Positions 1 through 61,427 of a stretch of 61,427 nucleotides of DNA are shown piece by piece (within the stretch, counting starts at the first letter, position 1; each line of letters opens with the position of its first letter). Where the stretch lies: positions 1 through 61,427 of IMG/VR virus record IMGVR_UViG_3300035670_000214. One strand, 5' to 3'. The notes below the pieces were generated by a model. That model did no database searches. It saw only the letters and a program-made list of their open reading frames with translations, and was not told the DNA's origin. The position numbers were made by a program, and so were the translations under genes. The DNA is from a virus.

Positions 1-1263
1 GGTAAGACGCAAACCTGCTCCCGGCTTACAGCTTGGGTGCTTGCTGAGAACCATCCACATTGGTCCAGACCCAAAAGCTGGAACAAGGAACCTCTTCTTC
101 TTCTCGTCTGCGGACGTACTGGAAAGCAGCTAGAGGAATCTCTCGTACCACGTATCTGTGCCTACCTACCTAGCGAAGATTACAAGGTAGTACGTATAGG
201 CAATATCACCCAACGTATAGAACACGTCAACGGTAACCGTATAGTATTCCAATCACTAGAGAATCCACAGTTAGCCCGCGAGCGCGTCCAGTCCTACGTA
301 GCCAATTTCGTCTGGGTAGACGAGATGCCATCGACAGTTCAGATTATAAACGAACTACTGATGCGTGTTCAATCAAAACAAGGCTACTTCATAGCTAGTT
401 TTACCCCACTCGTCCACAATGCTGAAATACGCAAAATGGTAGACGAGGTTGCAGAGAATATAGGAAAGAAATATCGCTTCCGGATGTTCGATAACCCCAT
501 CTATTCTGACCCAGAACGCCAGGCCCAACTATTAGCTTCTTACGCTCACCTTACCGATATAGAGCGTAACTGTCGTCTCAATGGCGATTGGATGGAAGCA
601 GAGAGTGCGGTATGGCATATTGACCGTGACTTCATGACTGAGACCCCACCAAATTACCACCCAAGCTGGCGTCACGTAGAAGCTTCAGACCCAGCAGTCA
701 GTAGTAAGTTTGGTATCAGTATCTGGGCTGAATGTCCAGAGAACGGTATCTGGTATTGTATCAGGGACGACTACATTGAAGGTATAGCTGCCCCAGACGA
801 CATTGTAGCCGAAGTGAAACGTAGGACAGCTAACATTAACATCATGCGCCGTATCTGTGACCCGCATGAGAGCTGGTACCTAGGCCAAGCGTCCAAGGCA
901 AAATTAAGCTACATCTGTCCTAAAAAGGATGGACGTAAAGACGAGATGATAAAGAACTTGCAAACAGCCCTGAGCTCAGGCAAAATCAAGATTGCCCCTT
1001 GGTGCACCAGATTGGTAGATGAATTAGAACGAGCGCAGTGGTCCGTAACTGACACTAACAAGGCTAGAATAGTAGGCGGTAGTAAGCTACACTTGGCAGA
1101 TACCGCACAATACTTCGTAGACCTTATACCCCAAGCTAGTAAGGACTACCAAGCAAAACCCTGGCATGCTGAACTTCGCCAAGCTAATGAGGAAAGAAAA
1201 GCTACGGTACTAGAACAGCGTATGCTAAAAGTAGGAAAGAAGAAAAGATGGATAATACGTTAA
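1..1263 (+). CDS. terL: Terminase large subunit, 3' part (continues from 61124)
   Basis: ATPase and nuclease motor that packages DNA into the prohead. The window opens inside the gene: codon 60 starts at base 1, and codons 1-59 lie at 61124-61300, giving a 479-residue protein. Seen: the Walker A lysine and threonine (GKT) are the first residues here, completing SNQSGKT; a Walker B-like strand VWVDE follows; the C-terminal half has acidic positions (SDPAV, CDPHE, ADTAQ) fitting the RNase H-like nuclease fold of terminases. The frame is open with no stop across the junction. It overlaps the next gene by 16 bases. Family assignment is firm; the exact nuclease residues are inferred. Confidence 0.9.
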   Translation, partial: GKTQTCSRLTAWVLAENHPHWSRPKSWNKEPLLLLVCGRTGKQLEESLVPRICAYLPSEDYKVVRIGNITQRIEHVNGNRIVFQSLENPQLARERVQSYVANFVWVDEMPSTVQIINELLMRVQSKQGYFIASFTPLVHNAEIRKMVDEVAENIGKKYRFRMFDNPIYSDPERQAQLLASYAHLTDIERNCRLNGDWMEAESAVWHIDRDFMTETPPNYHPSWRHVEASDPAVSSKFGISIWAECPENGIWYCIRDDYIEGIAAPDDIVAEVKRRTANINIMRRICDPHESWYLGQASKAKLSYICPKKDGRKDEMIKNLQTALSSGKIKIAPWCTRLVDELERAQWSVTDTNKARIVGGSKLHLADTAQYFVDLIPQASKDYQAKPWHAELRQANEERKATVLEQRMLKVGKKKRWIIR

Positions 1264-1439
1264 GTCTTTGGTTAAGCTTAAGCATAATTCTACCTGTACT
1301 AATCACCATGCTTAGCGTACTGGTATACATGCAGTTAAAGTTACGACGTGAACTGAAACTAGCTAAACAGAAGATGCGAGAAGGTACCTTAAAACGTAAT
1401 CATAAGAGACTATACCTTATAGACACGGAGCGTAAATAA
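1248..1439 (+). CDS. Small one-helix membrane protein
   Basis: A 63-residue protein between terL and the portal gene. One long hydrophobic stretch (about residues 6-28) is followed by a strongly basic tail, predicting a single transmembrane helix with a cytoplasmic tail. It starts inside the terL 3' end and its TAA shares a base with the portal ATG (TAATG), so translation is probably coupled. No family recognised. Position and topology would fit a small lysis or assembly accessory protein, but nothing in the sequence proves this. Confidence 0.6.
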   Translation: MDNTLSLWLSLSIILPVLITMLSVLVYMQLKLRRELKLAKQKMREGTLKRNHKRLYLIDTERK

Positions 1440-3463
1440 TGGCTAAGATTATGCGATGGACACCTGAGCAGGCTAAGAAGGAACTAGCTAAAAGGCTTAA
1501 GTTCGCCAAAGAGCAGAGGATACGTCTAGAGTCTGAATGGGACAGTAACGAGTCTACCGTCATGAATGCAGCTGGAGAAACGTCCCGCGTAAACATGGGA
1601 GTTGACTGGAATAGCGGCTCCTTGATAGAGGATATCGACCAATCAGATAGCGACATCGGAGTTAACTATGCTTTTAAAAATTTCCGTTTCATCCATAGCC
1701 AACTGTGCGCAAACCCTCCTACTGTTATACCACGTCCAACTAGTAGCGACTTATCAGACCGTAGAAAAGCTGATGCGGCAGATAGGCTAGTCCGCTACGC
1801 CATGCGTACCTATGGCCTTCCTGACGTATTCGCTCAGGCTAGCTACTACGCCTTGGAGTTCGGTACTGGCTTCATTAAGACTACTTGGGATACTGAAGCA
1901 GGTGAACCATTAGACTTCGATGAAGAAACTGGCGAGCTCACAATGGAGGGCGATATCCAGTTTAAATCCCTAAGCCCCCGTAGTGTCTTCCTTGACCCAG
2001 ACGCGACGAGATGGTCAGAAGTTAAATACGTAATCGAACTAATGTATATGCCTTATGAGGAAGCTATCTATCGTTTCCCAGAGAAAGCCGAGGAGCTTAA
2101 AAAGTATAGAAGAGAGCAGGCTGGTTACTCAGCGGAGGCTCCAATCTCCTACGATAGCGCATTTAAAACTAGCCCTTACGACGTGGTCGAGATATACGAA
2201 TACTACGAGAAGGGATTACCATACAACGGTATGATAGGCAGGCACTGCTACTTTCTGGTAGACGGCACTCCATTGACTGACATGGCACCTAACCCTTTCC
2301 GTTTCACTAGCCCTAAAGACAGAGGACTTGGTCTTCCAGAGCAGGCGTTAAATGAGGAAGCCAAGGATTTACCGGCTACTGCCTATCTTCCTTACCACAT
2401 CTTAACTGACATTGATGTAGGTGGTTCTGTCTGGGGTCGTTCGTTTATAGCTTACGAGGCTCCGCTACAATCAACCTATAATAGGGTGCTTAGCTCCTTG
2501 CTTGATTGCGTGCAAGCCCATGGCGTCACCAGGGTATTGCTACCAGAGGGCGCTGAGATTGCTGACAAGTCCATCACCAATAGTCCGTGGGATATAGTTA
2601 GGTTCACTGGAAACCAGGAACCTAAATTCATGGAACCTATGCCATTTCCTCCAGCTGCAGCTGACCTACTCCAACTCGTTAAGCAGGGTGGAGATGATAT
2701 GGCCGCTGTCAACGAGTCAATGTTCGGACAACAATCCAGGGAACAATCTGGCTTTAGCATGCAATACGCTACCAATCAAGGCAACATGATACGCCGCCGA
2801 CTCTTCGATAAGTACGTCACCTTGGTCGAGAACGTTTACAAGGCATACCTTAACCTCGTCAGAAAGCATTGGTCTGAACCTAGAACCATATTAGTATTGG
2901 GTAAAGAGAAGGCTTTTGAATCTATCGACATTCAAGGCGCTGACATTGATGGTGGATTCGACCTGGTTGTGGAATATGGTGCCAGCTTGTCGCTTGACCC
3001 TACTAGCCGTAGGCAGGAATTGCTACAGTTGTTCCCAATTTTCCAACAAGCTGAGACTGACCCAGCTGCTAAGAAGCTCTTGAGTATGCTGAGGCTAAAT
3101 GAGCTAGAAGGTATGTATGACCGTATCCAGCTAGCAGCCGATAGACAGAGGGAGATATTCGAGGAAATGATAGCTACTGACATGTACATAGCTCCAGCTG
3201 AAGCCGAGGACGACGTCAACATGCTAGCTTGGGCATCAGATTACCGCATGAGTGCAGAGTTCAAATACCTTAAGCCTGAACATCAATTGCTTATACTCCG
3301 TCACATTAAGGAAAGAGCTATGAAGGTAGCCCAGACTGCAGGCGGCATGCCGGGTCCTGGGGGCCCAGGTGGAGGCGGAGCAGCAGCAGGTCAATTACCA
3401 GTAGTACCAGGCGGAGCACCTATGGATATCGCGGCAAGTCCCGCAGCAATGCTTCAGAAGTGA
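1439..3463 (+). CDS. Portal protein
   Basis: A 674-residue protein directly after the terminase, the usual place for the portal (head-tail connector dodecamer through which DNA passes). The long alpha/beta body with conserved-looking segments such as SVWGRSFIAYEAPLQ and the C-terminal region rich in Gly, Ala and Pro (about residues 630-674) are typical of podoviral portal proteins. The call rests on position, size and general look rather than on a diagnostic motif. A 91-base gap with a promoter candidate follows, ending the packaging block. Confidence 0.8.
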   Translation: MAKIMRWTPEQAKKELAKRLKFAKEQRIRLESEWDSNESTVMNAAGETSRVNMGVDWNSGSLIEDIDQSDSDIGVNYAFKNFRFIHSQLCANPPTVIPRPTSSDLSDRRKADAADRLVRYAMRTYGLPDVFAQASYYALEFGTGFIKTTWDTEAGEPLDFDEETGELTMEGDIQFKSLSPRSVFLDPDATRWSEVKYVIELMYMPYEEAIYRFPEKAEELKKYRREQAGYSAEAPISYDSAFKTSPYDVVEIYEYYEKGLPYNGMIGRHCYFLVDGTPLTDMAPNPFRFTSPKDRGLGLPEQALNEEAKDLPATAYLPYHILTDIDVGGSVWGRSFIAYEAPLQSTYNRVLSSLLDCVQAHGVTRVLLPEGAEIADKSITNSPWDIVRFTGNQEPKFMEPMPFPPAAADLLQLVKQGGDDMAAVNESMFGQQSREQSGFSMQYATNQGNMIRRRLFDKYVTLVENVYKAYLNLVRKHWSEPRTILVLGKEKAFESIDIQGADIDGGFDLVVEYGASLSLDPTSRRQELLQLFPIFQQAETDPAAKKLLSMLRLNELEGMYDRIQLAADRQREIFEEMIATDMYIAPAEAEDDVNMLAWASDYRMSAEFKYLKPEHQLLILRHIKERAMKVAQTAGGMPGPGGPGGGGAAAGQLPVVPGGAPMDIAASPAAMLQK

Positions 3464-3494
3464 TACTGATTCACTAGCATCAATAATATTACTG

Positions 3495-3524
3495 TTGACT
3501 AGCTCCTTGACTTGCTGTTATTAT
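3495..3524 (+). promoter_or_regulatory. Sigma70-like promoter for the nucleotide cassette
   Basis: TTGACT at 3495-3500 and TATTAT at 3519-3524, separated by 18 bases, 31 bases before the dut start. It lies in an AT-rich gap with the inverted elements AATAATA and TATTATT. It would drive dut, the small RHH-like gene, nrdJ and perhaps thyX. Confidence 0.55.
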
Positions 3525-3995: not shown

Positions 3996-4203
3996 CGACA
4001 AGTCTGAAAAGCCCAACTATAGTTCCGCTATGGAGATGGGCAAAGGTAAATATGGTGTTTACGTCACCTTTACCAAAGAGGAATTGGAGAAGATTCAAGC
4101 TCATTGCAACGGCATGCGGGTCAATCTGTCAAAGTGGATAAGCAACATGGTACGCGATGAGCTAATGTTAACCGACATCATGGATAAATCAAAGGACGTC
4201 TAA
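3982..4203 (+). CDS. Small ribbon-helix-helix-like protein
   Basis: 73 residues between dut and the ribonucleotide reductase gene. The central part (about residues 22-58) reads as a short beta strand, VYVTFTKEELEKIQ, then two helices, the pattern of ribbon-helix-helix DNA-binding proteins such as Arc or MetJ. It could regulate the cassette it sits in; this is inference. Its TAA overlaps the nrdJ ATG (TAATG). Confidence 0.55.
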   Translation: MANYNDKSEKPNYSSAMEMGKGKYGVYVTFTKEELEKIQAHCNGMRVNLSKWISNMVRDELMLTDIMDKSKDV

Positions 4204-7037
4204 TGAGCTGGCAGAATCCGTCGCAAGAATTCGTTTACCTACGTACCTACGCTAGATACCTTACTGAAGAGCAGAGAAGAGAGACTTGGCCTGAGACCGT
4301 AGACAGAGTAGTCTCCTTCCTTAAATTGCAGAGAGCTAATGTTCCAGCCAAGGTCTGGATTAAACTTACGAAGTATATGTTAAATCTGGACGTACTTCCT
4401 AGCATGCGACTTGTCTGGGCAGCTGGCCCAGCGGCAGCTAGGTGTAACGTACCCATCTACAATTGTTCCTTCGTAGAGATGAAGGACATTCAATCCTTCA
4501 GCGAGATGTTATATGTACTTATGTGCGGCACTGGTGTTGGCTTTAGTGTGCAGGCTTGCCACGTGGAGCAGCTACCGGAAGTTCCTAAATTCCCGCTACA
4601 GCAGGAATATATCGAGCACAAGGTCGAAGACAGTAAAGAAGGATGGGCCGATTCCCTGAAATTACTGTTAGAGCAGTTATTTTTGGGCAAGAGCGTAAAC
4701 TTTGATTATTCCGCTATCCGGCCTAAAGGAGCGCGGCTGGCTACCATGGGCGGTAGAGCCTCTGGCCCAGAGCCACTCGTAGTCTTGCATCAATTCGTGA
4801 AGGATACCCTGCACGCTGCCCAAGGCCGTAAACTTAAGCCTATAGAAGTCCACGACATTTGCAATAAGATAGCCGAGATAGTGGTAGTTGGTGGCGTTAG
4901 GCGTAGCAGTCAAATTAGCCTCTCTGACCTTAATGATGAGGACATGCGCCACGCTAAGGACTGGCCCTGCCCTATCCACAGGTTCATGGCTAATAATAGC
5001 GCAGTATATCTGGAACGTCCAGACGCGGTACAGTTCATGAAGGAGTGGCACGCTCTGGCAGCTTCTGGCTCAGGTGAGCGTGGTATATTTAACTTGGGTT
5101 CCGTCCGAACTAATTCGCCTAAACGTAGAAACAAGGAGCTTATCTCAGGCACTAATCCCTGCGTACCCGGCGATACCGAGATATTGACACGTCAAGGTTA
5201 CCAGCGTATTGACCAATTACTCGGTCAAGAGGTAGAAGTCTGGAACGGTTTTGAATGGTCCAAAGTAGAACCAAAGATTACTGGAGAGAATCAAGCTATA
5301 GTAAAGGTCACCCTATCCAATGGACGCTCTTTACGCTGTACACCCGCACACAAGTGGGTAATAGCTGAAGGATACAACGGTAAAACTAAACGACTTAGAG
5401 CAGATGAATTAGCTGTAGGTATGAAGCTAATAAAGCATGAATATCCTGTTATAAAAGAAGGACGTAGGTTCGAGCAGGCTTATACTCAAGGCTTTATCTC
5501 AGCAGATGGCATGGATGATTACGACTTCTTATACTTGTATGAAACTAAGTTCGTCTGTGAATCTAGATTAGTAGGTCAAGCGGTAGGTAGTGGATACACT
5601 AGCCTTAATGGAACTGAGCGTAAAACTTTTAAGCTTGACTTTCAGCCTATGTCTAAAGACTATGTACCATTCGACTGTGACCTTCAATCTAGGCTAGATT
5701 GGCTAGCAGGGTTATTAGATGGAGATGGTACAGAATTAAAAGAGGGCGGAGTTCAAGTTAGCTCAGTTAATAGGTCATTCCTTCTCGAAGTACAAAAGTT
5801 ACTTACCACCTGTGGCGTAGCATCGAAAGTAACGCTAGGTAATCCAGCTGGGCATCGAATAATGCCAGATGGCAGAGGCGGAGTTAAAGCCTACCTCTGC
5901 CAAGAGGGATATAGATTACTTATAGGCGCAACACAGATGCAAGAGCTAAAAGAACTGGGTCTTAAGTGTGAGCGTTTGAAGCTGGAAGCAAGTCCTAACC
6001 GTGATGCTTCTAGATTTGTAACTATTGCTAGTATTGAAGAGGATGGAGTCGAGGAACTAGTATATTGCTTCACTGAGCCACTCCGCAACCTAGGCTGTTT
6101 CGATGGTATAATAACAGGGCAGTGCGGCGAGATTGCCCTGCGTGACAAGCAGTTCTGTAACCTATCTACTGTCATCGTCAGACCTGAGGACACCCTTACT
6201 AGCCTACTCGATAAGGTAGAGACTGCTGCTTGGATAGGCACAATCCAGGCTTCATTTACCAACTTCCCTTACCTCCGTAAAGAGTGGAGTGAGAACTGTA
6301 AGGAGGAGGCCCTCCTTGGGGTCAGCCTATCGGGCCAGATGGACAATGTTCCCTTGCTCACCAAACAGACCTTAGCTGAGCTGAAACGTAAATGCGTCGA
6401 GGTAAATAAGCACGCGGCTGAGGTATTAGGTATTAAGCAGGCTGCTGCGATAACCTGCGGTAAGCCTGAGGGTACTACTAGCCAACTTACCTTCAGCGGC
6501 TCTGGCTGTCACCCTTGGTACTCAAAATACTTTATCCGTAGGTACCGTATATCTGCTAGCGACCCTCTCTGTCACCTATTAAAGGAGTCTGGTGCTCCCC
6601 TTGTCCCGGAGGTAGGCCAGACCTGGGAGACAGCCAATACCCTTGTGGTAGAGTTTCCGTGCAAGGCCCCCGAAGGGGCCATCTTGCGTGAACAGGTATC
6701 AGCTCTGGACCAGTTAAAGTGGTATAAGCGGGTACAGACCAACTGGTGCGAACATAATCAGTCCATCACCGTCTACGTCAAGCCTGACGAGTGGTTCGAC
6801 GTAGGTAACTGGGTATATAAGAACTGGGACATAGCGTGCGGTCTATCCTTCCTGCCCTACGATGGCGGTAACTACCAGCTAGCTCCCTATGAGGAAATCT
6901 CGCAGGAGGAGTACCAAGACCGGTTAGCCAGGTTCCCGACTATCGACTACTCCCAGTTATGGAAGTACGAGCAGGAAGACCAGACTGAAGGAGCTAAAAC
7001 TTACGCTTGCGTTGGCGATAAGTGTGAGCTAAGCTGA
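4203..7037 (+). CDS. nrdJ: Class II (B12-dependent) ribonucleotide reductase with intein
   Basis: Reduces ribonucleotides to deoxyribonucleotides using adenosylcobalamin, so no NrdB or oxygen is needed. The 944-residue precursor holds a 321-residue intein (residues 320-640), leaving a 623-residue enzyme of the monomeric RTPR-like group. Seen: first active-site Cys in YNCSF (Cys88); after splicing, NPCGEIALRD with the thiyl-radical Cys (641 of the precursor); its redox partner 11 residues on in QFCNLS (Cys652); a C-terminal CVGDKC pair for thioredoxin-type re-reduction. The 11-residue spacing matches the RTPR pattern. It overlaps the upstream gene by one base. The enzyme is shorter than bacterial RTPR (about 740 residues), as is common in phages. 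Confidence 0.92.
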   Translation: MSWQNPSQEFVYLRTYARYLTEEQRRETWPETVDRVVSFLKLQRANVPAKVWIKLTKYMLNLDVLPSMRLVWAAGPAAARCNVPIYNCSFVEMKDIQSFSEMLYVLMCGTGVGFSVQACHVEQLPEVPKFPLQQEYIEHKVEDSKEGWADSLKLLLEQLFLGKSVNFDYSAIRPKGARLATMGGRASGPEPLVVLHQFVKDTLHAAQGRKLKPIEVHDICNKIAEIVVVGGVRRSSQISLSDLNDEDMRHAKDWPCPIHRFMANNSAVYLERPDAVQFMKEWHALAASGSGERGIFNLGSVRTNSPKRRNKELISGTNPCVPGDTEILTRQGYQRIDQLLGQEVEVWNGFEWSKVEPKITGENQAIVKVTLSNGRSLRCTPAHKWVIAEGYNGKTKRLRADELAVGMKLIKHEYPVIKEGRRFEQAYTQGFISADGMDDYDFLYLYETKFVCESRLVGQAVGSGYTSLNGTERKTFKLDFQPMSKDYVPFDCDLQSRLDWLAGLLDGDGTELKEGGVQVSSVNRSFLLEVQKLLTTCGVASKVTLGNPAGHRIMPDGRGGVKAYLCQEGYRLLIGATQMQELKELGLKCERLKLEASPNRDASRFVTIASIEEDGVEELVYCFTEPLRNLGCFDGIITGQCGEIALRDKQFCNLSTVIVRPEDTLTSLLDKVETAAWIGTIQASFTNFPYLRKEWSENCKEEALLGVSLSGQMDNVPLLTKQTLAELKRKCVEVNKHAAEVLGIKQAAAITCGKPEGTTSQLTFSGSGCHPWYSKYFIRRYRISASDPLCHLLKESGAPLVPEVGQTWETANTLVVEFPCKAPEGAILREQVSALDQLKWYKRVQTNWCEHNQSITVYVKPDEWFDVGNWVYKNWDIACGLSFLPYDGGNYQLAPYEEISQEEYQDRLARFPTIDYSQLWKYEQEDQTEGAKTYACVGDKCELS
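5160..6122 (+). other. Intein with LAGLIDADG homing endonuclease in NrdJ
   Basis: A 321-residue in-frame insertion beginning CVPGDTEIL (block A, nucleophile Cys1), then RCTPAHKW (block B, Thr and His), a degenerate first endonuclease motif GFISADG, a second motif LAGLLDGDG, block F around VYCFTEP, and the end FDGIITGQ followed by extein Cys. Splicing would join ...SGTNP to CGEIALRD. The terminal residue is Gln instead of the usual Asn and the penultimate is Gly instead of His, a known but uncommon variant. The two motifs suggest a single-chain homing endonuclease; whether it still cuts is unknown. Confidence 0.9.
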
Positions 7038-14002: not shown

Positions 14003-17000
14003 ATGAAGATTTTTGGTAGTATCAGTGAATTGGTTGACTTAGCCTTTAGACTCGCTGGCGGGAAGCAAGTGAAGCTTCGCTCCGCTACCCAGACCACCGC
14101 AGGTAGCACAGTAACAGTAAACGTCCCGGACGTAGCAGCTACCGGTGACACGCAGAACATGATATTGACGAATGCTACTCAGACCTTAACTAATAAGACG
14201 CTGACTAGCCCAGTAGTTAGCGGTGGTACCATCAACAACTCCATCATCGGCGGGTCTACCCCAGCAGCTGGTACCTTCACTGACATCGTAGGTTCTACGC
14301 TCGATATCAATACTTCCGCCGAGTTACAGACACTTACTATTCCTAGCTTATCAACAGCTGGTGTATTGCACAATAACTCCTCAGGCGCAGTAAGTTCTTC
14401 CCTTGTCGTTAACGCCGACGTAGATGCTGCAGCAGCTATCGCATTTAGCAAATTGGCTACCCTCGCTTCCGGAAATATCCTCGTAGGCTCTAATACAGGC
14501 GTAGCTACCTCTCGTGCAGTCACTGGTGATGTAACCATCAGCGACCTTGGTGTTACCGCCATTGGCGCTAGCAAGGTCACCGATAGCATGCTAGCTGGTA
14601 ACATAGCTAGAACTAAGCTGGCTACTGGTAACAACTACCGCATACTTGCTAACGATTCCTCAGGTGCAGTGTCTGAGAACGCTGCTTTGACAGCTAACGA
14701 AGCAGTAGCTACCGATGCAAATGGCCAACTGGTATCAGTAACCGGCGTATCCGCTACTGAACTGGGTTACTTATCTGGCGTAACATCCGACGTCCAAACA
14801 CAAATAGATAGTAAGCAAGCAGCTGATGCTACCCTTACTGCTATTGCTGGTGTAACCACTGCCGCCGATAAGTATATCTACTTCGATGGTGTAGATAGCG
14901 CACAAGCAGCTACTATCACCTCATTTGCTCGCGGCCTTTTGGACGATACTAGTGCTACTATAGCCCAGAATACCCTGGGTTTGGGCTCTATGTCCACCCA
15001 GGCTGCCACCAGTGTTAATATTACCGGCGGCACCATACAGACAACTAACCTTCAGAATAACACCCTGAACGGCCATAAACTCGGTTCTGGTTCTGCAAGC
15101 ATTGCTAGCTCTACTCTAACTCCAGCATCTAATAAGTCACTTCAACTTATCGCTTCAGCAGCCAACTTCGGCATGATAGCCAGTCCAAGTGACGGACAGG
15201 AATATGTCCTCGTCAATGAATCTGCATCTGACATTACTATACAGAATCTTACAGGCGCTACTGCAGCTAACCAAATTTATACTGGTACTGGAGCAGATTT
15301 TACCTTTAAGGCTAAATCAGCCGTATCAGTAGTCTACGACGGTACACTTAGCAAGTGGATGTTGACTGGCGGCGGCGGTGGAGCTGGTGGACTTGCTACC
15401 ACCTACGTTACAGCTGGCGGCATCACTGCAGTCAAGAATACTCACTACCTTACGAATCTGGCTGCATCGGGCCAGACCATTACTCTCCCAGCTGGTGTTG
15501 ATGGCGACGTCATCCGCTTCTCTGACGCAGGTGAAGTCTGGGATGTATACCCACTTACCATCGCCCCAGCAAGTGGCGAGAAGATTGATAAGCTTGCGAT
15601 AGATGAGACGCTCGTATGTGACGTCAAGCGCGGCTGGGTTGAGCTCTCCTACAACAGCACCTTCGGCGGCTGGGCTTTCATGTCTCTGGCTTCCAGCTCT
15701 GGCAGTGCCTCTGGCTCTGGCGAGATTAATGCTGTGCTTAACGCCTCGGCAGCAGCTGACACTACTGGCTGGACGAATGCTACACGCGTAAGCTCTGGCT
15801 CACCTTTGGACCCAGTTGTCACTACAGCCCTCAGCATTTCAAATGTGGCAGCTTCCGAAGGCCCTACCTCAGGTGGCTACTACTCTATCGCAACAATGCC
15901 AGCTTCATTACGAAGCAGAAAACTTAAACTAGAATTCTACTATTCCACACCGGCTACAGATGTGTACAAGGTGTCGGTTTATGCCGGTTCAACCAGACTG
16001 TCCCTCAGCAGTGACAACTCAGGAGCTACAAGCCTACCAGCCAACGTAACAGGAGGCTTCTTCAGCGCATCCTTCGACGCTACTACAGCTTCGGCTTACA
16101 CACTGAACATCACCCGTACCTCCGGTACTACTGGCGCAATCACGGTTACGAATGTTGTCGTAGGCCCAGGCATCGTAGCTCAGGGTGCAGCTATTAGTGA
16201 GTGGCAGAGTTATACGCCTGCAAGTACGCAAGGTTTTGGTAATCCCACTGCTACGGTTTATAGATATAAACGTTCAGGTAGCTCAATAATTGTCTCCGTG
16301 AAATTTACCGCTGGCACGGTTACAACTGACGAAGCACGTATATCCCTCCCGTCCGGGCTCACGAGCGCAACCACAAATGCATTGACTATGGTGGGAGCGT
16401 ATGCAAGGGGTACAGGTACTACAGCATCGGCAAATCAAGTATATATTGAAAACGGTGCGGCTTACTTAACTTTTGGACGGGCAGATGGAACCTTAGCTGG
16501 ATATGCTAAGCGGCAAGGTAGTCAGCTTGTTTCCGCTGGTGAGGATTTTGGTTTTACTACTGCAGAAATCCCCATCGCTGAGTGGGCCGGAAATGGCACA
16601 GTCAATTTGGGACAAGGTGCTAACCTCGAATATGCCTTTAATAGCTCGGCTACCACCACGACGGACACGACGAGTTTTGGCTATGGTCCGACCGGCGCTG
16701 CTTTTGCTGCGTTTGCTCCAGGTGGAACAGCAAGTGTAGATAAACGAGTCAGGTTTCAGTATCCAATACAACAAGATGATGAATTGGTTGTCGAAGTGCA
16801 AGAAGCTGGTACTGGAACTTGGGTGCCCTTAATTTCCCGTTTAGGGGCTTTTTACAGCAACGCTGCAGGTACTACCTACTACGGGACTCAATTGATACGT
16901 GTATCTGGTAGCTCGACTGATGTTGATGTTGCATTCTACGCCGCAGCTCCATCTCAAGGAGCCTGGTCTTCATTAAGTACCTGGAAATGGCGAGTACGCA

Positions 17001-42354: not shown

Positions 42355-42403
42355 GTTACCGAGATGTACACATCGGGATGCCCGAAGGGCAGATTGGTAA
42401 CCT
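42355..42403 (-). ncRNA. Three-way-junction-like RNA element
   Basis: Read on the minus strand: outer stem GTTACC / GGTAAC encloses two hairpins, TGCCC-TTCG-like-GGGCA and GATGT / ACATC. It lies between the nuclease-like gene and a small gene. It could be a processing site, attenuator or cis-regulatory RNA; no known riboswitch recognised. Confidence 0.45.
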
Positions 42404-42890: not shown

Positions 42891-43152
42891 ACTCCACCCA
42901 TCCTTTCTCAAGCTTTCGCTTCGTAGTCTTACATTTACAGCAGGTCCAGGTGTGCTGATAGCCACCGTGGCAGGGAGTGCTGGGGTATTCAGGGCCAGCT
43001 GGGTCATAAGCACTACACCCACACATTCCCTTATTTGCTTCCCAGAACGGGCAGGTCGCGCCTATTCCCTCATACCAGGTGTCCTTGTGTGGCGTTACGC
43101 TAGCGCATTTACGGCAGCGCTTTCGCTTAACCTTAAGCCAATACCTATTCAT
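42865..43152 (-). CDS. Cysteine-rich zinc-binding protein
   Basis: 95 residues with ten cysteines: KRCRKCAS, ATCPFW, GMCGCSA, TPCHGG and WTCCKCKTTK. Two or more zinc sites are likely. It overlaps the helicase gene stop by four bases and the nuclease-like gene by about 26 bases. Could be a cofactor of the helicase; inference only. Confidence 0.7.
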   Translation of the reverse strand: MNRYWLKVKRKRCRKCASVTPHKDTWYEGIGATCPFWEANKGMCGCSAYDPAGPEYPSTPCHGGYQHTWTCCKCKTTKRKLEKGWVECDDLWTWK

Positions 43153-44624
43153 AGTCCTATAGCCTTATGCGTAGGCTCCTCTGATACTGCATCACAGAAC
43201 CAACCAGGGAACAGCTCTCGGTAGTCATTGTACAGGCGTTTAAAGGAACGGTCTACGATGAATGTCTCCCCGAAGTCATTGGGGTTACGACAGACTCGGC
43301 CATAGGCTTGGACAACTAGTCTGGCTGCCTCGTTAGCGTAGCCCTCTGGGTCCTGCTGAGCTAAATACTGCATAGCTGGTTCGGTTAGGTTAGCCCAAGG
43401 TACCTTACAGATTACCTGCCACCTGGCTAGGTCATCGGCTAGGTCAATACCCTCATACATACCAGAGGCTACCATTATCTTACCTTCAGTCTCCTGGAAC
43501 TCTTTGAATATTGCCTGCTTATTTTGGTTACTGTGGAACAGGAACCTCGGATGATTACCTAGCAGTAAGCTTAGGTTCTTGGCTAAGGCGTAAGGAGCGT
43601 GGATGAAGCCTCGACCGGGTTTGGTCTCGGCTAGTTCTAGCAAATAGTCAGCAAGTTTGGGTATGTCTCTACCGTTGGCTGCGGCTGATAGGTTAAATCT
43701 TAGGTCAAGGTGTAAGGGTCTGCGTTCCACTGGTATAGGACTGGGTGCATCAATAACACAGATGCGCCTGTCACCTAAGCCCATGTCCTCTACATCCTTA
43801 CGATTTATTGTACCGGATAAGAAGAATAGTTTCTTAACCTTACCTAAGGGCCAGAGTAGTGGCGGTTGGTCTTTGACGTCTACGGGTATCAATTTAAGGC
43901 ACTCCCGTTCCTCGCCCCTATACAGGGAATAGCCCTTCTCTACTAGGTAATGTACCTTGTTGGACATGAGCTCTGCTCTTAGCTCTTTCAGCTTCTTGTC
44001 ATTGGGTGTTCTAGTCAAACGCTCAGTGACCCAGCGGAGTAGCTGGCCGTAGGTCCGTACATACGATGGGAACTCGTAATCGTGGTGCCATAACTTCTTA
44101 GCCGCTAAGTCCTTTATCATGCCTTGCAGCAGATGGCCCTCATCTATAATCAAGCCTTCACCGTATAACCTATAAGCTAGGTAGGTATAATTATTGATAA
44201 CTACGTAAGGCATAGCTTGGGCTTTACGCAAGGCTCCTACGTAAGGGCAACCCTTGCAATAAGCTCCACGCTTCTTACTGGTACCAGTTAACTTGGTATG
44301 CTCGCCACAGTCAAACTTAACAGTCTGATTCTCGTAGAGGGAGCAAGTATAACTCTCCCGCTTCTTTAGCGTATTGATACTAGGGAAGCTGTCTAGGTAC
44401 TGCTGTAACAATAGGTTATTAGGTACTAATATCCTAGACTTCCACTTATTCCGCTGCTGAAGGTATCTTGCAATAGTCATGGATAGTAGCGTCTTACCAG
44501 AAGCGACAGGTGCTCTGATGATGAATACATCTGAGCTATCGAACTTCTCTTCTAGCTTTAGCAACACGTCGCGTTGAACATCTCTTAACTGCCATCCTCC
44601 AGGTACAGCTTTAAGTATGCTCAT
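43149..44624 (-). CDS. Fe-S helicase of the DinG/XPD type
   Basis: 491 residues, ATP-driven 5'-3' DNA helicase family. Walker A VASGKT (40-45), DEAH-like box DEGH (161-164), and between them four cysteines (94, 106, 123, 126) in the place of the 4Fe-4S cluster of XPD and DinG. Motif VI appears as QAYGRVCRNP near the C-terminus, with SGTINRKD and GMYEGIDL before it. Likely the replication or recombination helicase, since no DnaB-type gene was found. ATGA overlap with the next gene. Confidence 0.85.
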   Translation of the reverse strand: MSILKAVPGGWQLRDVQRDVLLKLEEKFDSSDVFIIRAPVASGKTLLSMTIARYLQQRNKWKSRILVPNNLLLQQYLDSFPSINTLKKRESYTCSLYENQTVKFDCGEHTKLTGTSKKRGAYCKGCPYVGALRKAQAMPYVVINNYTYLAYRLYGEGLIIDEGHLLQGMIKDLAAKKLWHHDYEFPSYVRTYGQLLRWVTERLTRTPNDKKLKELRAELMSNKVHYLVEKGYSLYRGEERECLKLIPVDVKDQPPLLWPLGKVKKLFFLSGTINRKDVEDMGLGDRRICVIDAPSPIPVERRPLHLDLRFNLSAAANGRDIPKLADYLLELAETKPGRGFIHAPYALAKNLSLLLGNHPRFLFHSNQNKQAIFKEFQETEGKIMVASGMYEGIDLADDLARWQVICKVPWANLTEPAMQYLAQQDPEGYANEAARLVVQAYGRVCRNPNDFGETFIVDRSFKRLYNDYRELFPGWFCDAVSEEPTHKAIGL

Positions 44625-53927: not shown

Positions 53928-53933
53928 TCCGCA

Positions 53934-55959: not shown

Positions 55960-55968
55960 TGATTTGCG
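55960..55968. repeat. Target-site duplication, left copy
   Basis: TGATTTGCG directly abutting the left inverted repeat; identical to 57418-57426. Confidence 0.9.
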
Positions 55969-56114
55969 TCAGCTGGGGTAGTTCGTCGGGGGAGACCCCC
56001 TAGTAAACGCCCGTTTTTTCTATATTTTTTAACCAAAACTTAACTCTTTTCTCGAAATTCTAAAGAAACGGTTCGAACTTCCGATCTTCGCCTTGATTGG
56101 TCGGAGGGTTCTGG

Positions 56115-57026
56115 ATGCGAGATAGGCGGGGACAGGAAAGAAGGGTCTGCCCTAATGAAAGGTGTAAGAACCATTCTGTCCCTAGTTTTGACTTCACAAA
56201 AGATGGCTTTTACCTTCGAAAGACGGGAAAAAAGGACCGAGTGCAAAGGTATAGGTGTAAGTCCTGCGGTAAAAGATTTCACGGGACATACGGGAGGCTC
56301 ACCTATAGGCAGCGAAAGCCCGAGATAAATAAGCCCTTCGTTGAAGTATACCTATCTGGTGTAAGCCTAAGACGGACGGCACACATCCTAAAGGTAAACA
56401 GAAAGACCTTAGCAAGGCGAATACTAACCCAAGGGGCTATGGCCAGAAAAAGCCACGAAGATAGACTCTTAAAATCCGACGACTTTAAAGGACGGAACTA
56501 TTCCTTCGACGATATGATTACAAAGGTCGGTAGCAAATACTTTCCCGTATCGTTATCAATAGCGGTAAATGAGGATACAGGCAAAATCGTAGACATCAAA
56601 GTTTCAAGAATCAATGCCTACGGTTATCCCGCCAGAAATTCTTCCAAGGTCCCTGGCCTTACCAAAGTCCCAACCGACCTACACAACCAGGAAATGATAA
56701 ATGTGCTTTCCGCCATTAAAATTGCCTCTAAAGGCACAAAATTCTTTCTTCATACGGATAAAGCCAACAACATAGTATCGACAGGACGAATCGCCCTTGG
56801 CAAAAATTTTGTTCATAAACCTGTGAAGGCCCCTAAGAAGGGCGAACAAAGAGCGGGTTTTTCCGCTATGTTCTGGCTGAATCATGTTTGTGCTAGGATA
56901 AGGGCCGACTTAGCAAGGATGGGAAGGTCCAGTTGGTGCTTTAGCCGATCGATGGATTCCCTACAATCGCACCTTGATATGTTCATGGAGTTCTTCAATA
57001 ATAGACAGTATAGAATAGCCTCTTGA
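56115..57026 (+). CDS. tnp: IS1-like transposase
   Basis: 303 residues in a single frame from ATG 56115 (GGAGGG 6 bases upstream). Zinc ribbon at the N-terminus (VCPNERCKN and YRCKSCGKRF), helix-turn-helix (SLRRTAHILKVNRKTLARRI), then the DDE region: FDDM (first Asp), FFLHTDKAN (second Asp) and the C-terminal NHVCARIRADLARM...SWCFSR block typical of IS1 and IS1595-type enzymes. All parts seem intact, with no frameshift of the kind IS1 itself uses. It catalyses movement of the surrounding element. Confidence 0.88.
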   Translation: MRDRRGQERRVCPNERCKNHSVPSFDFTKDGFYLRKTGKKDRVQRYRCKSCGKRFHGTYGRLTYRQRKPEINKPFVEVYLSGVSLRRTAHILKVNRKTLARRILTQGAMARKSHEDRLLKSDDFKGRNYSFDDMITKVGSKYFPVSLSIAVNEDTGKIVDIKVSRINAYGYPARNSSKVPGLTKVPTDLHNQEMINVLSAIKIASKGTKFFLHTDKANNIVSTGRIALGKNFVHKPVKAPKKGEQRAGFSAMFWLNHVCARIRADLARMGRSSWCFSRSMDSLQSHLDMFMEFFNNRQYRIAS

Positions 57027-57051
57027 TTGCGGTTGTGTTTGTTTTTATGAA

Positions 57052-57067
57052 GTCTTATTAATAAGAC
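57052..57067. terminator. Palindrome between convergent IS genes
   Basis: Perfect 16-base palindrome GTCTTATTAATAAGAC at the junction of the two convergent genes, with T runs on the left side. Likely a bidirectional terminator. Confidence 0.6.
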
Positions 57068-57294
57068 ATTAGGTCTTTCCAATCATTTCGACGTTTTTCA
57101 TCTGCCCATATAAATACACTCTGGTCGTATTCCTTAGGGCAGCCATGCGGTTTTGTTACGGCACCACGGAGGTCTTTTGTAGCAAAAGGAATCCACTGGT
57201 CAAGGATTTTGCCGCAGCGCTCGCAAGGGTCTGGGGTCAGATCAAGGTCATATTTTGCTGCCCATTTTTTGACTGGAACATTCGGATAAATCAT
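57058..57294 (-). CDS. IS passenger gene, Cys-containing protein
   Basis: 78 residues inside the insertion sequence, convergent with the transposase. PCERCGKIL and a later GCPKEYDQ suggest a metal site; other features are DQWIPFATKDLRGAV and a basic/aromatic end ADEKRRNDWKDLMSY. No family recognised. Many IS1/IS1595-type elements carry passengers; this one could serve regulation, maintenance or nothing. Confidence 0.6.
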   Translation of the reverse strand: MIYPNVPVKKWAAKYDLDLTPDPCERCGKILDQWIPFATKDLRGAVTKPHGCPKEYDQSVFIWADEKRRNDWKDLMSY

Positions 57295-57417
57295 AAATAT
57301 AAAATCCTCTGATGGTTTATTCTACTGCTTATCGGAAAAATTAAGAATAAACTTTTTAAAAGTTCAACCTGGAAGAAAAAGTCCTTATAGAAAACCCCCG
57401 TTGTCTACCCCAGCTGA

Positions 57418-57426
57418 TGATTTGCG
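57418..57426. repeat. Target-site duplication, right copy
   Basis: TGATTTGCG directly abutting the right inverted repeat; identical to 55960-55968. Confidence 0.9.
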
Positions 57427-57695
57427 ATTTCCCTTCTCTTACCCTTACCGCCTGTAAGAATTAGTCGAAAGACAAATGCATAGACCGTGCCAATTTGACG
57501 CGGTTGCGTCTGGCTAAAGGTTAAAAATATCCTAGCCCATCTATCGGCAGAAGTGAAATAAAACTTAAGTTTGAAGTATAATGTACGGATATTATTAATC
57601 ATTTATTGACCTGTAAAATTACTTTGAATTTTCTGACCCCAGTTGTCGATGAGTTCATTGTGGTCAGTGAGATAAACAACAACGGGGTAATTACA
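57427..57695 (+). promoter_or_regulatory. Leader of rightward small-gene island
   Basis: AT-rich gap between the IS and the first island gene. A TATAAT at 57577-57582 with TGAAAT 17 bases upstream is the best promoter candidate; a TTGACC at about 57606 is another. No gene seen. Confidence 0.4.
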
Positions 57696-57968
57696 ATGGA
57701 AAACTATAATGGATATCAGAATAGGGAGACATATGATGTGGTGCTGTGGTGTCAGAATGACGAGGGTCTCTATCATATGTTTAGGGACCAAGACGCCCAG
57801 ACCATTAAAATTCAGTTTCAGGAGTGGGCGGATCAGTCAGTGACTGAACCCATGGAGCTCACCGAGGAGCTACGCTCGGTGCTCCGCGATATCGGCTCTC
57901 TCTGGCGGGTCAATTGGTACGAGGTCTCCGACGCGTTAACAGACGAAACAGAGGAGGAATCGGTATGA
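57696..57968 (+). CDS. Small NYNGYQNRETYDVVLW protein
   Basis: 90 residues from ATG 57696; a TTG-started longer frame is rejected. The start NYNGYQNRETYDVVLWCQND resembles small phage and plasmid proteins that begin N-x-NG-x-x-N-x-ET-x-x-V-x-LW-x-x-NDE. Acidic, likely helical. It contains one of the rare GATC sites (57831). The stop overlaps the next ATG (ATGA). Confidence 0.6.
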   Translation: MENYNGYQNRETYDVVLWCQNDEGLYHMFRDQDAQTIKIQFQEWADQSVTEPMELTEELRSVLRDIGSLWRVNWYEVSDALTDETEEESV

Positions 57969-58315
57969 ATAGGAAACAGATGAAAGAGCTAGGAAAAGCG
58001 ATGAACGAATTGGAACGATACCGTGCACCCGCCGTCCGGTTTGTTGTGAAGCGCGGTAAGACCGTTGGACAACCGGAGCACCGCTGGGTCGTTTGGGATA
58101 CCCGGTTCCAGGAATGGATGATAGCTGGGGAGAACTATAGGGTGATAAAAAACACGGCAGACGGTTGGAACGTGGAAGAGATAAAGAGACCTCAATTGGT
58201 TTTGGTGGTTTCCAATTCTTACGATTGGTATCAATTGACGGTCAGGAAATTAAGTCGTGTTTTACCTAGGCAGAATGATAGGAAAAATCAGGTGCATTTA
58301 AGTTTGGTCCGGTGA
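57965..58315 (+). CDS. Small basic island protein
   Basis: 116 residues from ATG 57965 (GAGGAGG upstream), basic, with several Trp and Val-rich strands (VVKRGKTVGQPEHRWVVWDT, PQLVLVVSNSYDWYQLTV). Function unknown; could be a host-interacting protein. Confidence 0.6.
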   Translation: MNRKQMKELGKAMNELERYRAPAVRFVVKRGKTVGQPEHRWVVWDTRFQEWMIAGENYRVIKNTADGWNVEEIKRPQLVLVVSNSYDWYQLTVRKLSRVLPRQNDRKNQVHLSLVR

Positions 58316-58375
58316 TTCCCGAAAAGTCTTATATCAGGTCGGTGATGGCACCGGCCAAGAACAAGGAGACCTAAG

Positions 58376-58564
58376 ATGTTTCAGCACAACGATATCATCA
58401 GTGGAGACCAAGAATTCCTTAAAGAATGGCTAGGACTAGAAAAAGGCGCGGCCAGCTGTTTCTCTGACGGCTTTCTGTTCATCGTGCAGCGTCAGAACGG
58501 TCACTGGGTGACCCTTAAGGCCTTCGACCTCAAAATTGAAACCGATATCCTAGGAGGGAAATAA
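58376..58564 (+). CDS. Small island protein
   Basis: 62 residues with a strong AAGGAG site. Starts MFQHNDIISGDQEFLKEWLG; alpha/beta. Ends one base before the next gene. Unrecognised. Confidence 0.6.
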   Translation: MFQHNDIISGDQEFLKEWLGLEKGAASCFSDGFLFIVQRQNGHWVTLKAFDLKIETDILGGK

Positions 58565-58565
58565 G

Positions 58566-58886
58566 ATGAGTATTCAGATTATTACCTGGTATGATACCGT
58601 CAGTCCCGAGTCAGCGGAGCAGGGTGAGTATGAGAGTACCGGAAACGACGAGCGGGTCTATCGGTTTGATCCGGTTGAATTGGCTGAGGCTGTCGCTGAG
58701 TTCCGGTCCATGGTTGAGCAAGGGGCTTGGGAAACGACTGATATCCGCGTGAATGAGGTCCTGTACTCTGCCGACCCGTCGCTGGACTATAGGACAGGAC
58801 ACGAGGACAGCGATTGTCTCGTGCTGCACATCGACGACCCTGAACTTCGCAAAAAGGCCCAGGCTCTCATAGACTCCTGGGACTAA
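58566..58886 (+). CDS. Small acidic island protein
   Basis: 106 residues with TAGGAGG upstream, strongly acidic (VYRFDPVELAEAVAEFRSM, RTGHEDSDCLVLHIDDPEL). Last gene before a strong terminator. Contains the other rare GATC (58668). Unrecognised; acidic small early proteins often target host enzymes, but this is inference. Confidence 0.6.
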   Translation: MSIQIITWYDTVSPESAEQGEYESTGNDERVYRFDPVELAEAVAEFRSMVEQGAWETTDIRVNEVLYSADPSLDYRTGHEDSDCLVLHIDDPELRKKAQALIDSWD

Positions 58887-58930
58887 GAGACAGCCCCCCT
58901 GAAGTCGTGTCTTAATAGACACGCCACGGC

Positions 58931-58965
58931 CCCGTTGGCAGACGCTGACGGGGTCTTTTAGTTTT
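58931..58965 (+). terminator. Terminator of the small-gene island
   Basis: CCCCGT ... ACGGGG stem around a GC-rich loop, followed by TCTTTTAGTTTT. A good intrinsic terminator 45 bases after the last island gene. Confidence 0.85.
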
Positions 58966-59729
58966 AGACCTAGCTCAATCCACCGCCCCGCCAATTTAGC
59001 GCCGCGCCCTTTCGACCGGACCATCCCATCGCCGTCGGGAACTTCCCCTCCACCACCACCACACCACGCCTCACGTGTAAGCAGCGACAAGATGGTCGCC
59101 AAGTGGGGTCAACCGACGCGCTGAAGAGAATTTCCGGGCACACACTCGGGGATAATCGGGGGCAAAAGGTCAATAATATTAGGCTGTTAGAGGAATAGAT
59201 ACGAGGGGTAATAGTAGGTGCTAAGTTACGAATATCACTAGCATTAATTAGCAGTACCAAATGTCAGCCAAAAACCCGGCCCAAAAGTACTAAGCCCCCT
59301 GCTAGCAACTGCTAGAGGGGGCGTATAGGTGCTTGCTTCGGCCTCTCCCTCGGCCTCGTCTCTCTCTACCTCCCCTCTTCGGGGTAGCTATCGAGCTCCT
59401 CGGCCTCGGGGTACTACCTATTAACTAGGTACTAGCAACCAGCCCAGTACCAGATAACGACACTAGTTGTCTCGTTCTGGTAACATCCTGCTAGATAGTA
59501 CAAGCCACTTCGTGTCAGGTGCCAATAACCTGCTAGATAGTACACAAAAGAAGGTACTTACCGGGCACTTGAAAAGTCCAGTACTCTAGATATAACAAGT
59601 TATCAGTCACAGGTCAACTACGTAGTTATAGACCAACCCATATATATTCACATAGGGTAGGGGAGTAATAAGAATGTAGCACGACCTGAAGGGTCTGTCA
59701 AGTAAAAAATTAATCAAGACACAAAAAAC
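58966..59729. other. Non-coding region with repeats, upstream of terminase genes
   Basis: No gene supported. Seen: a hairpin GCCCCCT / AGGGGGC (59294-59322); three TCGGCCTC repeats (59338, 59350, 59400); TACCTA / TAGGTA (about 59414-59431); an imperfect 35-base stem TACCAGA / TCTGGTA (about 59448-59482); a 16-base direct repeat CCTGCTAGATAGTACA (59487-59502 and 59529-59544); palindromes ATAACaaGTTAT and AACTACGTAGTT (59592-59627). Could hold a packaging site, operators or a replication origin. Confidence 0.6.
59487..59544. repeat. 16-base direct repeat pair
   Basis: CCTGCTAGATAGTACA at 59487-59502 and 59529-59544, 42 bases apart start to start, with an AGGT...ACCT stem between them. Possible protein-binding iterons ahead of the terminase operon. 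Confidence 0.75.
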
Positions 59730-59758
59730 TTGACTTGCCCCTACCGATAGGCTAATAT
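59730..59758 (+). promoter_or_regulatory. Promoter of the packaging operon
   Basis: TTGACT at 59730-59735, exactly 17 bases, TAATAT at 59753-59758, 25 bases before the first gene. It reads into the small terminase, large terminase and portal genes. Confidence 0.85.
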
Positions 59759-59783
59759 ATACTCTGGTCTGGAGGTCTACGCG

Positions 59784-60089
59784 ATGCTTAAACCATTCCA
59801 GAAGTCCCATAACACCGCCTTTAGGCTGTTCACCGTCCTGCTATACGGCTTGGAATCCAACCTACCCTACCTGGAATACCTAGGTCAAGAGGGAAGATAC
59901 CGCCGATTACGGCTTCGACCAGCCCCTTGCTCTTACTCCATGCGTATGACGGTCCACCGCATGAAGCAGCACCTGGTCTGGCTGCAGGAAATCGGTCTAA
60001 TAGACCAGCTGGAACTATCCCCAGGCCGGATAGACCTTAGCATAAAGCTACCCGACCCAGCTCCGTACACCGAGGAAGCAGAAGAATGA
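59784..60089 (+). CDS. Small putative DNA-binding protein
   Basis: 101 residues with TGGAGG upstream. Basic N-terminal half and a winged-helix-like central part (YSMRMTVHRMKQHLVWLQEI, GLIDQLELSPGRIDLSIKL); acidic tail. Right before the small terminase gene with ATGA overlap. Could regulate the operon or assist packaging; not recognised. Confidence 0.55.
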   Translation: MLKPFQKSHNTAFRLFTVLLYGLESNLPYLEYLGQEGRYRRLRLRPAPCSYSMRMTVHRMKQHLVWLQEIGLIDQLELSPGRIDLSIKLPDPAPYTEEAEE

Positions 60090-60655
60090 GCCGAGAATCC
60101 AGCAAAGGGGCCGCTAATACCCCTCAGTCCACCGAAATGAAGGATGCCGTAGAGCAAATAATCTACGTACCTACTACCCAGGAGAGAAAACTCAAGGCAA
60201 AATTCTGGTCAAAAGCCGGTGAGAACCCCCTCATGCCCATAGCAGGCTCCAATATCAGCCTAGCCAATATTAAACAACTGACCGGCAATAATCAATCCCT
60301 CGATGCAGCCTGGAAAAAGCCAGGATTCCAGAACTGGTTCATGAATGCCGATGACGGGCGAGCCAAAATGGAGTACCTATTTGACCTAGGGCTGGACGCC
60401 ATCGAGGAATTGCTCATGAGCCCAGACCCCAAAACCTCCTCCGCCAAGGTAAACGCCCTAAAGCTTCTAGCTGAATTGACGGGCAGGTACATTAAGGGCA
60501 AGCAGGGTCAAATAGGCGGACTTGGCGAAGCTATCGCCCATGCCGACAAGGCTAGCCTGGAAGCCCTCTTCGAGTCAGCCGGATTAAAAGTAGCAGTTTC
60601 AGCCTCTAAAGGCCAAGAACAAATGATAACCATAGAACCAGAAGGAGACAAGTAA
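60086..60655 (+). CDS. terS: Putative terminase small subunit
   Basis: 189 residues. Helical (MPIAGSNISLANIKQLTGNN, KMEYLFDLGLDAIEELLM, AKVNALKLLAELTGRYIKG), typical of the DNA-recognition and oligomerisation parts of small terminases, and followed two genes later by terL. It would bind the packaging site, possibly in the structured region just upstream. Call based on position and helical pattern; no diagnostic motif. Confidence 0.6.
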   Translation: MSRESSKGAANTPQSTEMKDAVEQIIYVPTTQERKLKAKFWSKAGENPLMPIAGSNISLANIKQLTGNNQSLDAAWKKPGFQNWFMNADDGRAKMEYLFDLGLDAIEELLMSPDPKTSSAKVNALKLLAELTGRYIKGKQGQIGGLGEAIAHADKASLEALFESAGLKVAVSASKGQEQMITIEPEGDK

Positions 60656-61038
60656 TGTCTAAAGCCTATTATCCACAGGAATGCAAACTATCAAATGTGA
60701 CAGTTATAGGTGCAAGCCAAACTAACACCCCAATTTCTCTAACATTTTCAGTCTCCAAAGCTGGTTCCTTGAACATCCTGGTAGCCATCCAGTGCTCTGC
60801 GGTTACAGCAGGTGCAGGGATTACTGCCAAGCTACAATCTAGCGTAACAGGCGCTGATTGGCTAGATGGAAATAGCGTATCAGTAACAGGTAATGGCTGG
60901 TTCTACATCCGCATGAACATCGAGGTCAGCGCCGACCAAGCTAAATTACCATTAGCCGACCTAGGTAGAGTAGTACTTACTACAGGTGCAGGCTCAGCAG
61001 CTACCATTGACGCAGTCTACGTGGTTCAAGCCCATTGA
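60655..61038 (+). CDS. Putative head decoration or structural protein
   Basis: 127 residues, beta-rich, Ser/Thr/Val/Gly-rich (ISLTFSVSKAGSLNILVAIQ, NGWFYIRMNIEVSADQAKLP), no charged helices. TAATG overlap with the small terminase gene. Such compact beta proteins between terminase genes may be decoration or head-fibre proteins. Not recognised. Confidence 0.5.
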   Translation: MSKAYYPQECKLSNVTVIGASQTNTPISLTFSVSKAGSLNILVAIQCSAVTAGAGITAKLQSSVTGADWLDGNSVSVTGNGWFYIRMNIEVSADQAKLPLADLGRVVLTTGAGSAATIDAVYVVQAH

Positions 61039-61123
61039 CTCTAGATGAAAAAAACCTAGTACGGATACGTAGTATCTTGGTCGAAGACCTCGTAGTGTCC
61101 CACTTCTTAACTTAGGCTGTGCA

Positions 61124-61427
61124 ATGACCACACTGTCCCCAGAAATGCTAGCCAAAGCTGCCGAGCGTTATAGACGTCTTGCTTTGCAGGACGCCTTTGA
61201 CCCTCACAACCTAAGCACCAGACCCACGGCAGTACAGCAACAAGTATTCGAGGAGTTTGGCCAAAGAAGCCAACAGTGGATAGTAGCGTCCAACCAATCG
61301 GGTAAGACGCAAACCTGCTCCCGGCTTACAGCTTGGGTGCTTGCTGAGAACCATCCACATTGGTCCAGACCCAAAAGCTGGAACAAGGAACCTCTTCTTC
61401 TTCTCGTCTGCGGACGTACTGGAAAGC
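61124..61427 (+). CDS. terL: Terminase large subunit, 5' part (continues at base 1)
   Basis: ATG 61124 opens the 479-residue large terminase. Residues 1-59 are unique to this end; from 61301 the sequence duplicates bases 1-127. The N-terminus is helical (LAKAAERYRRLALQDAFDPH), then RPTAVQQQVFEEF and the strand WIVASNQSGKT with Walker A Lys61 and Thr62. An 85-base gap with a GATAC / GTATC hairpin precedes it. Upstream AGG is 7 bases from the start. Confidence 0.9.
   Translation, partial: MTTLSPEMLAKAAERYRRLALQDAFDPHNLSTRPTAVQQQVFEEFGQRSQQWIVASNQSGKTQTCSRLTAWVLAENHPHWSRPKSWNKEPLLLLVCGRTGK
61301..61427 (+). repeat. 127-base terminal repeat (assembly overlap)
   Basis: Identical to 1-127. The length equals a common assembler k-mer and the repeat falls inside terL with the frame continuing, so it marks a circular contig rather than a real phage end. 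True genome length about 61,300 bp. Confidence 0.93.

Follow-up and report, generated by a model that had tools for sequence, protein, structure and literature searches.

Among described systems, those closest to the gene considered in this work are Type II restriction-modification (R-M) systems of the DpnII/MboI type, which act on GATC. That gene encodes a putative solitary GATC-specific restriction endonuclease in a virus record, IMGVR_UViG_3300035670_000214 of IMG/VR, the whole of which (positions 1 to 61,427; 61,427 nt) was analysed and is called the window here; a terminal repeat of 127 bp indicates that the record is a complete circular map of ~61.3 kb. The likeness to DpnII/MboI systems lies in a PD-(D/E)XK nuclease whose homologues at loci L191 and L193 adjoin a D12 methylase, that of L191 being closest to M.DpnII, whereas the window and most of its relatives are free of a methylase and would be protected by the absence of the site. 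Restriction enzymes that stand alone have been described in prokaryotes; one of them, PacI of Pseudomonas alcaligenes, whose host genome reportedly lacks its recognition sites, has been explained through these missing sites (PMC3488263). PacI is bacterial, however, while the enzyme considered here is viral, its four-base site has been purged where ~150-240 copies were expected, and several specificities are involved. The PacI site is eight bases long and easily rare by chance.

Extreme loss of short palindromes, GATC included, has been described as restriction-site avoidance in phages (PMC6286503) and in the HF1 haloviruses (PMC7230728), where it was ascribed to enzymes of the host and not, as we infer here, to an enzyme encoded by the phage. 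A phage nuclease acting on the DNA of a competing phage is known from the interference competition mediated by the homing endonuclease gp210 (PMC11620839), but gp210 is an HNH nuclease within an intron and is directed at a specific target gene, whereas the present gene is free-standing and its presumed site has four bases. Among known folds, DpnI (PDB 4kyw, 4esj), PvuII and Eco15I give the best structural matches to the predicted model, although they are only 10-18% identical to the window nuclease, and DpnI requires methylated GATC, while the methylase pairing found in the window family implies that methylation protects. A few searches of the open-access literature, covered in part, brought up no account of a restriction enzyme that is carried by a phage, is free of a methylase and has its four-base site purged from the genome. 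On comparative sequence evidence, the best reading of the data, and in our judgement a very probable one, is that the phage encodes a solitary GATC restriction enzyme to which it is immune through complete removal of the site.

Missing words in the window and its relatives

The earlier note on this DNA, made from the letters alone, had described a near-total absence of GATC, and a count establishes it: there are five sites (56083, 56947, 57240, 57831 and 58668) against ~182 expected under a maximal-order Markov model, or 239 when base composition is used. The note had the number of sites and their region right, but placed the first, at 56083, eight bases off at about 56091. Among 4-mers, GATC shows the strongest depletion by a wide margin (z -16.9, with the runner-up at -6.1), and the minima among five- and six-base words are weak. 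Tetranucleotides one substitution away (GATG, GATA, TATC and CATC) are among the most over-represented in the window, an excess that is expected if GATC sites were lost through point mutation. The 45 kb of coding sequence contain no GATC, compared with a mean of 125 and a minimum of 97 in 300 synonymous-codon shuffles. All five sites lie within 55970-59100, three in an insertion sequence and two in a neighbouring island, as had been noted; the native phage genome to the left (1-55968) and to the right (59101-61427) is GATC-free, a count of zero to be set against the more than ten sites elsewhere that the note had named as telling against its claim. Its remark that the phage carries no GATC methylase gene also holds, in that searches of the window with the DNA methylase families PF02086, PF01555 and PF00145 gave no match.

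Searches of viral contigs with the portal and major capsid proteins retrieved ~130 related loci, most of which have exactly zero GATC, with the rest near expectation and one locus holding a single site; among the loci with normal GATC, many have exactly zero CGCG and three have zero GGCC. This all-or-none pattern is also seen in complete or near-complete relatives, eight of which show observed/expected GATC counts of 0/145, 0/146, 0/191, 0/202, 0/244, 0/192, 0/213 and 0/182, while the others contain 204-370 and intermediate levels are absent. CGCG stands at 0/119 and 1/127 in two of the GATC-normal genomes and GGCC at 0/80 in another. On the portal tree the GATC-zero state changes at least four times, and all four labels together account for 10 changes. 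A complete purge without intermediates, usually of one missing word per genome, suggests that the cause is carried by the phage.

Other words are also depleted in some relatives. The group L113-L123 (represented by G018) combines zero CGCG with near-zero CCWGG (0/45 in G018), so that two words are missing together; GRGCYC is nearly absent from L044 and L045 (0/10 and 1/14), and AAAA is missing from L046 and L100 (0/10 and 0/17).

The nuclease family, its methylase exception and a second family for CGCG

When open reading frames (ORFs) were called and clustered in 18 genomes, 11 GATC-zero and seven others, exactly one widespread ORF family followed the loss, being present in 10 of the 11 and in none of the seven; the one GATC-zero genome in which it is missing is a fragment of 46 kb, where neither a polymerase nor a helicase was matched. 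In the window the family is represented by an unannotated protein of ~162 aa with the motif D...E-L-K-T-D (42402-42890, minus strand), a putative GATC-specific restriction endonuclease assigned by family association, fold model and methylase-paired homologues. Its start, a GTG at 42890, was chosen on the basis of an overlapping upstream ORF: the frame is open to 43022, and this upstream portion overlaps another ORF at 42865-43152. The locus is marked by a conserved neighbour, a DinG/Rad3-like helicase gene (43149-44624, minus strand; Pfam Helicase_C_2 and ResIII) identified also by neighbourhood comparison. As the family was found by scanning, this first association is partly selected and its first p-value is not clean; the tests that came later, on other phages, methylase pairing and roseophages, were not selected in this way and constitute real support.

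Searching viral contigs with the nuclease family alone returned 26 loci, 20 of which have zero GATC; the GC content of these ranges from 34 to 60%, and some belong to phages that the portal and capsid searches had missed. The 19 non-duplicate, methylase-free loci comprise 353 kb with no GATC, against ~973 expected. The six loci with normal GATC form the exception. At L191 and L193-195 the nuclease gene has, at its start, an overlapping or adjoining gene for a D12 adenine methylase; L196 encodes nuclease and methylase fused as one 384-aa protein; and in L206, where the catalytic lysine is replaced by arginine, the same genome holds a D12 methylase a few kb off. When whole records were searched with PF02086, precisely these six gave a match, while the other 25 searched, the window among them, gave none. 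In the PDB, the partner methylase of L191 comes closest to M.DpnII (E 3e-58), with Dam next; both of these act on GATC. Among these loci, the nuclease is thus found together with GATC only when a GATC-type methylase is there too. This pairing implies an enzyme that would be blocked by adenine methylation, DpnII-like rather than DpnI-like, and whose victims would have to carry unmethylated GATC. Zero GATC at 19 loci, together with the DpnM/Dam-like partner, likewise points to GATC as the site at which the nuclease would cut. The window itself lacks the cognate methylase of a Type II R-M system, which the homologues in L191 and L193-196 possess; by its sequence, its gene encodes a putative solitary nuclease, descended from R-M enzymes or resembling them, and does not make up an R-M system.

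The family has an invariant E-L/V-x-T-D, near-invariant K and D, and conserved ERWS/ERYS and GGPW; across 24 homologues E56 is invariant, and D45 and K58 are near-invariant, in the numbering of the 163-aa sequence that was modelled. At the sequence level the conserved D-x(n)-E-L-K-T-D, E-R-[WY]-S and G-G-P-W include the PD-(D/E)XK signature. An AlphaFold2 model (pLDDT 89) predicts strands at residues 46-48 and 54-60 and has as top structural matches Eco15I (Z 8.4), PvuII (8.1) and DpnI (8.1), with I-Ssp6803I and Holliday-junction resolvases, Hjc near the head of the list, as further neighbours. The model thus places the catalytic D...(D/E)-x-K on a core beta sheet, as in members of the PD-(D/E)XK superfamily. 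A Pfam search with 10 members and a PDB sequence search gave no relevant match, results that leave room for kinship with MutH/Sau3AI, DpnII or DpnI, and tblastn of the nuclease against cultured phages found nothing. The gene is a free-standing ORF near the helicase in relatives and so does not have the intron or intein setting of a homing endonuclease.

A second family accompanies the loss of CGCG. The two complete CGCG-zero relatives, G005 and G007, share an otherwise unique protein of ~150-190 aa (G007:15831-16397; G005:14459-14923), which is unrelated in sequence to the GATC nuclease and whose family mostly carries D-x(n)-E-V-E-V-K or something close to it. Among cultured phages, homologues occur as hypothetical proteins adjoining the class II ribonucleotide reductase in roseophages, namely SIO1, P12053L, ICBM2, ICBM3, CRP-1, CRP-3, CRP-4, CRP-5, CRP-235 and CRP-345; the one in P12053L lies at 15455-15904. 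CGCG is absent from all ten carriers (12-104 expected) and present in all four roseophages without the family (CRP-6, CRP-118, CRP-403 and CRP-804; 28, 109, 120 and 149 sites among the four), an association with a Fisher p of 0.001, where, as in all Fisher tests here, related records are counted as independent. CRP-235 had been presumed negative because tblastn missed the gene; its CGCG count is 0/91, and a profile then found the homologue (E 1.5e-26). On host FZCC0023, CRP-1 and CRP-4 have zero CGCG and CRP-118 has 109; on host FZCC0042, CRP-345 has zero and CRP-6 has 28. That carriers and non-carriers share a host strain argues against the host as the cause of CGCG loss, since host-driven avoidance would make all phages of a host alike. 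A search of the CGCG-family roseophages for PF01555 and PF00145 methylases found none. The AlphaFold model of the CGCG nuclease is too poor for use (pLDDT 38), and an 87-aa family also common to CGCG-zero genomes was dropped in favour of the nuclease-like one, being coil-like.

For GGCC there is a candidate of 199 aa, encoded in a GGCC-zero genome (G006:35374-35973, minus strand, equivalent to L171:15377-15973, minus strand) and showing what may be a D...HVK core; a search for its relatives found none. Among the roseophages (L209-L224), CCWGG is scarce in most, with or without the CGCG nuclease, and CCGG is scarce in many. Both may reflect avoidance driven by the host, and the scarcity of CCWGG regardless of that gene is probably the form that such pressure takes.

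Proposed action of the nuclease and competing explanations

According to the reading we prefer, the phage would make a PD-(D/E)XK endonuclease that cuts unmethylated GATC, would do so without a partner methylase, and during infection this enzyme would cut GATC-bearing DNA. Its own genome would escape because point mutations have eliminated each GATC in it; a new GATC arising there would be lethal or strongly selected against. Chances are about even that the target is the host chromosome, the cutting of which would halt the host and provide the phage with nucleotides; co-infecting phages and plasmids are a less likely or an additional target, which we put forward only tentatively. The window phage also encodes a ribonucleotide reductase, ThyX and a dUTPase. 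Related phages would follow the same strategy with unrelated enzymes and other words, CGCG for the second family and GGCC for the candidate. A route that avoids suicide would lead from a nuclease with its methylase, as in L191, through loss of the sites to loss of the methylase.

The earlier note had attributed the missing word to long selection by a GATC-cutting restriction system or a GATC-directed methyl/repair system of the host. Restriction at GATC does emerge as the best explanation, but its source appears to be the phage and not the host, as the gene tracks zero GATC both within this clade and in unrelated phages, although the host may contribute. Evasion of a host GATC-cutting R-M system would have ample precedent, in that phages commonly avoid the sites of Type II enzymes of their hosts, all of 46 phages whose hosts encode the corresponding enzyme show avoidance of GATC (PMC6286503), and the HF1-group haloviruses lack GATC (PMC7230728). 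It gives no reason, however, to expect that a gene of the phage should follow the loss or that genomes with a methylase should be exempt, and CGCG differs among phages of one host strain according to the gene, which makes host restriction an unlikely cause. Selection against GATC by Dam methylation and mismatch repair, or by a methyl-directed, DpnI-type nuclease of the host, recalls phiX174, whose lack of GATC has been linked to mismatch-repair escape (PMC5014478). Yet such pressure leaves both the zero CGCG and GGCC of relatives and the nuclease association unaccounted for; the methyl/repair explanation is also not needed, given that zero GATC follows the phage gene and sites are tolerated only beside a GATC-type methylase, and we regard it as the least probable of all.

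It may instead be that GATC was lost for another reason, such as host restriction, and that a methylase-free nuclease was gained afterwards and now maintains the zero. A methylase-free nuclease in a GATC-rich phage would at first be suicidal, and G006, G005 and G007 are related phages with a complete site purge. A stage with a methylase, as in L191/L193, after which first the sites and then the methylase disappeared, accounts for this equally well, however, and the gene occurs in all 10 GATC-zero genomes that include its region, when some should be without it if the two were uncoupled; we therefore give this order of events little credence, slightly less than host restriction. Several points count against a phage-encoded enzyme made harmless by site removal. 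The window holds five GATC alongside an intact-looking nuclease, which strict self-cleavage forbids; the gene was selected among dozens of families; the records are related to one another, with near-copies among them (L193-195; L199/L200); Foldseek used by itself gives no match at E<0.001 (DpnI probability 0.9), and structural Z scores of about 8 are modest; for GGCC the enzyme is a candidate only; and the data leave undecided whether site loss or nuclease came first.

Tolerated sites, host leads and the meaning of a missing word

Three of the five sites (56083, 56947 and 57240) belong to an IS1-like insertion sequence (55969-57417, plus strand) recognised by its transposase match and by terminal inverted repeats TCAGCTGGGGTAG. 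The transposase (56097-57026) matches NCBIfam transpos_IS1 with E 2.6e-15, yet below the family cut-off. Exact 9-bp direct repeats TGATTTGCG flank the element at both ends as a target-site duplication (55960-55968 and 57418-57426, plus strand), and this perfect duplication indicates a young insertion. The remaining sites (57831 and 58668) lie in an island of small genes (57427-59100, plus strand), which includes a DUF7249 protein (57606-57968) and two of whose genes have homologues in the GATC-free relatives L004 and G008. A second contig, L002, has the same sequence as the window. The five sites may be tolerated because they are unpurged so far, because expression from the GTG start is weak, because the enzyme is inactive, or because the population is mixed.

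Leads to the host and to the chemistry of the genome were followed without success. A cyanophage identity found no supporting gene match. A 2-aminoadenine genome was rejected: a weak DpoZ match accompanies a dATP/dGTP pyrophosphohydrolase family protein (40498-40953, minus strand; PF18909, phrog_801), but no PurZ match was seen in the window. Relatives of the portal occur in metagenome-assembled genomes (MAGs) of Saprospiraceae and Nanoarchaeia, which disagree and may be binning errors; a search of 395 genomes from the phylum of the Saprospiraceae MAG gave only the phage contig and one very weak match. The transposase has no relative among genome contigs and one weak plasmid match, and the closest isolates by portal share just 22-26% identity. 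The adenosylcobalamin-dependent ribonucleotide reductase (4203-7037, plus strand) has an intein at ~residues 320-640, and its homologues in L004 and L010 align as two outer parts alone and are thus intein-free. The terminase large subunit of L003, L004 and L005 is broken at Walker A (residues 54-58) by ~360-1,000 bases, while that of the window is uninterrupted.

When a short word is missing from a phage genome, the usual view is that host defence has left its mark; in the present case the best interpretation is that the loss serves as an antidote to a nuclease which the phage itself encodes. We lean, with some reservation and from sequence comparison, towards a general phage weapon made of solitary, interchangeable restriction enzymes that belong to several unrelated families (for GATC, for CGCG and perhaps for GGCC and further words) and to which immunity comes through complete word loss; the nuclease of a phage could then be predicted from its missing word, and phages lacking different words would cut one another's DNA and so form incompatibility groups. 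If our reading is true, some published avoidance needs rereading, and a missing word offers a genome-only route to unannotated nucleases and their specificity, as it did for CRP-235. It would also point to a possible source of small restriction enzymes, would bear on self/non-self discrimination without DNA modification, and would mean that phage recombination is shaped by these enzymes, since imported DNA bearing the word would be cut.

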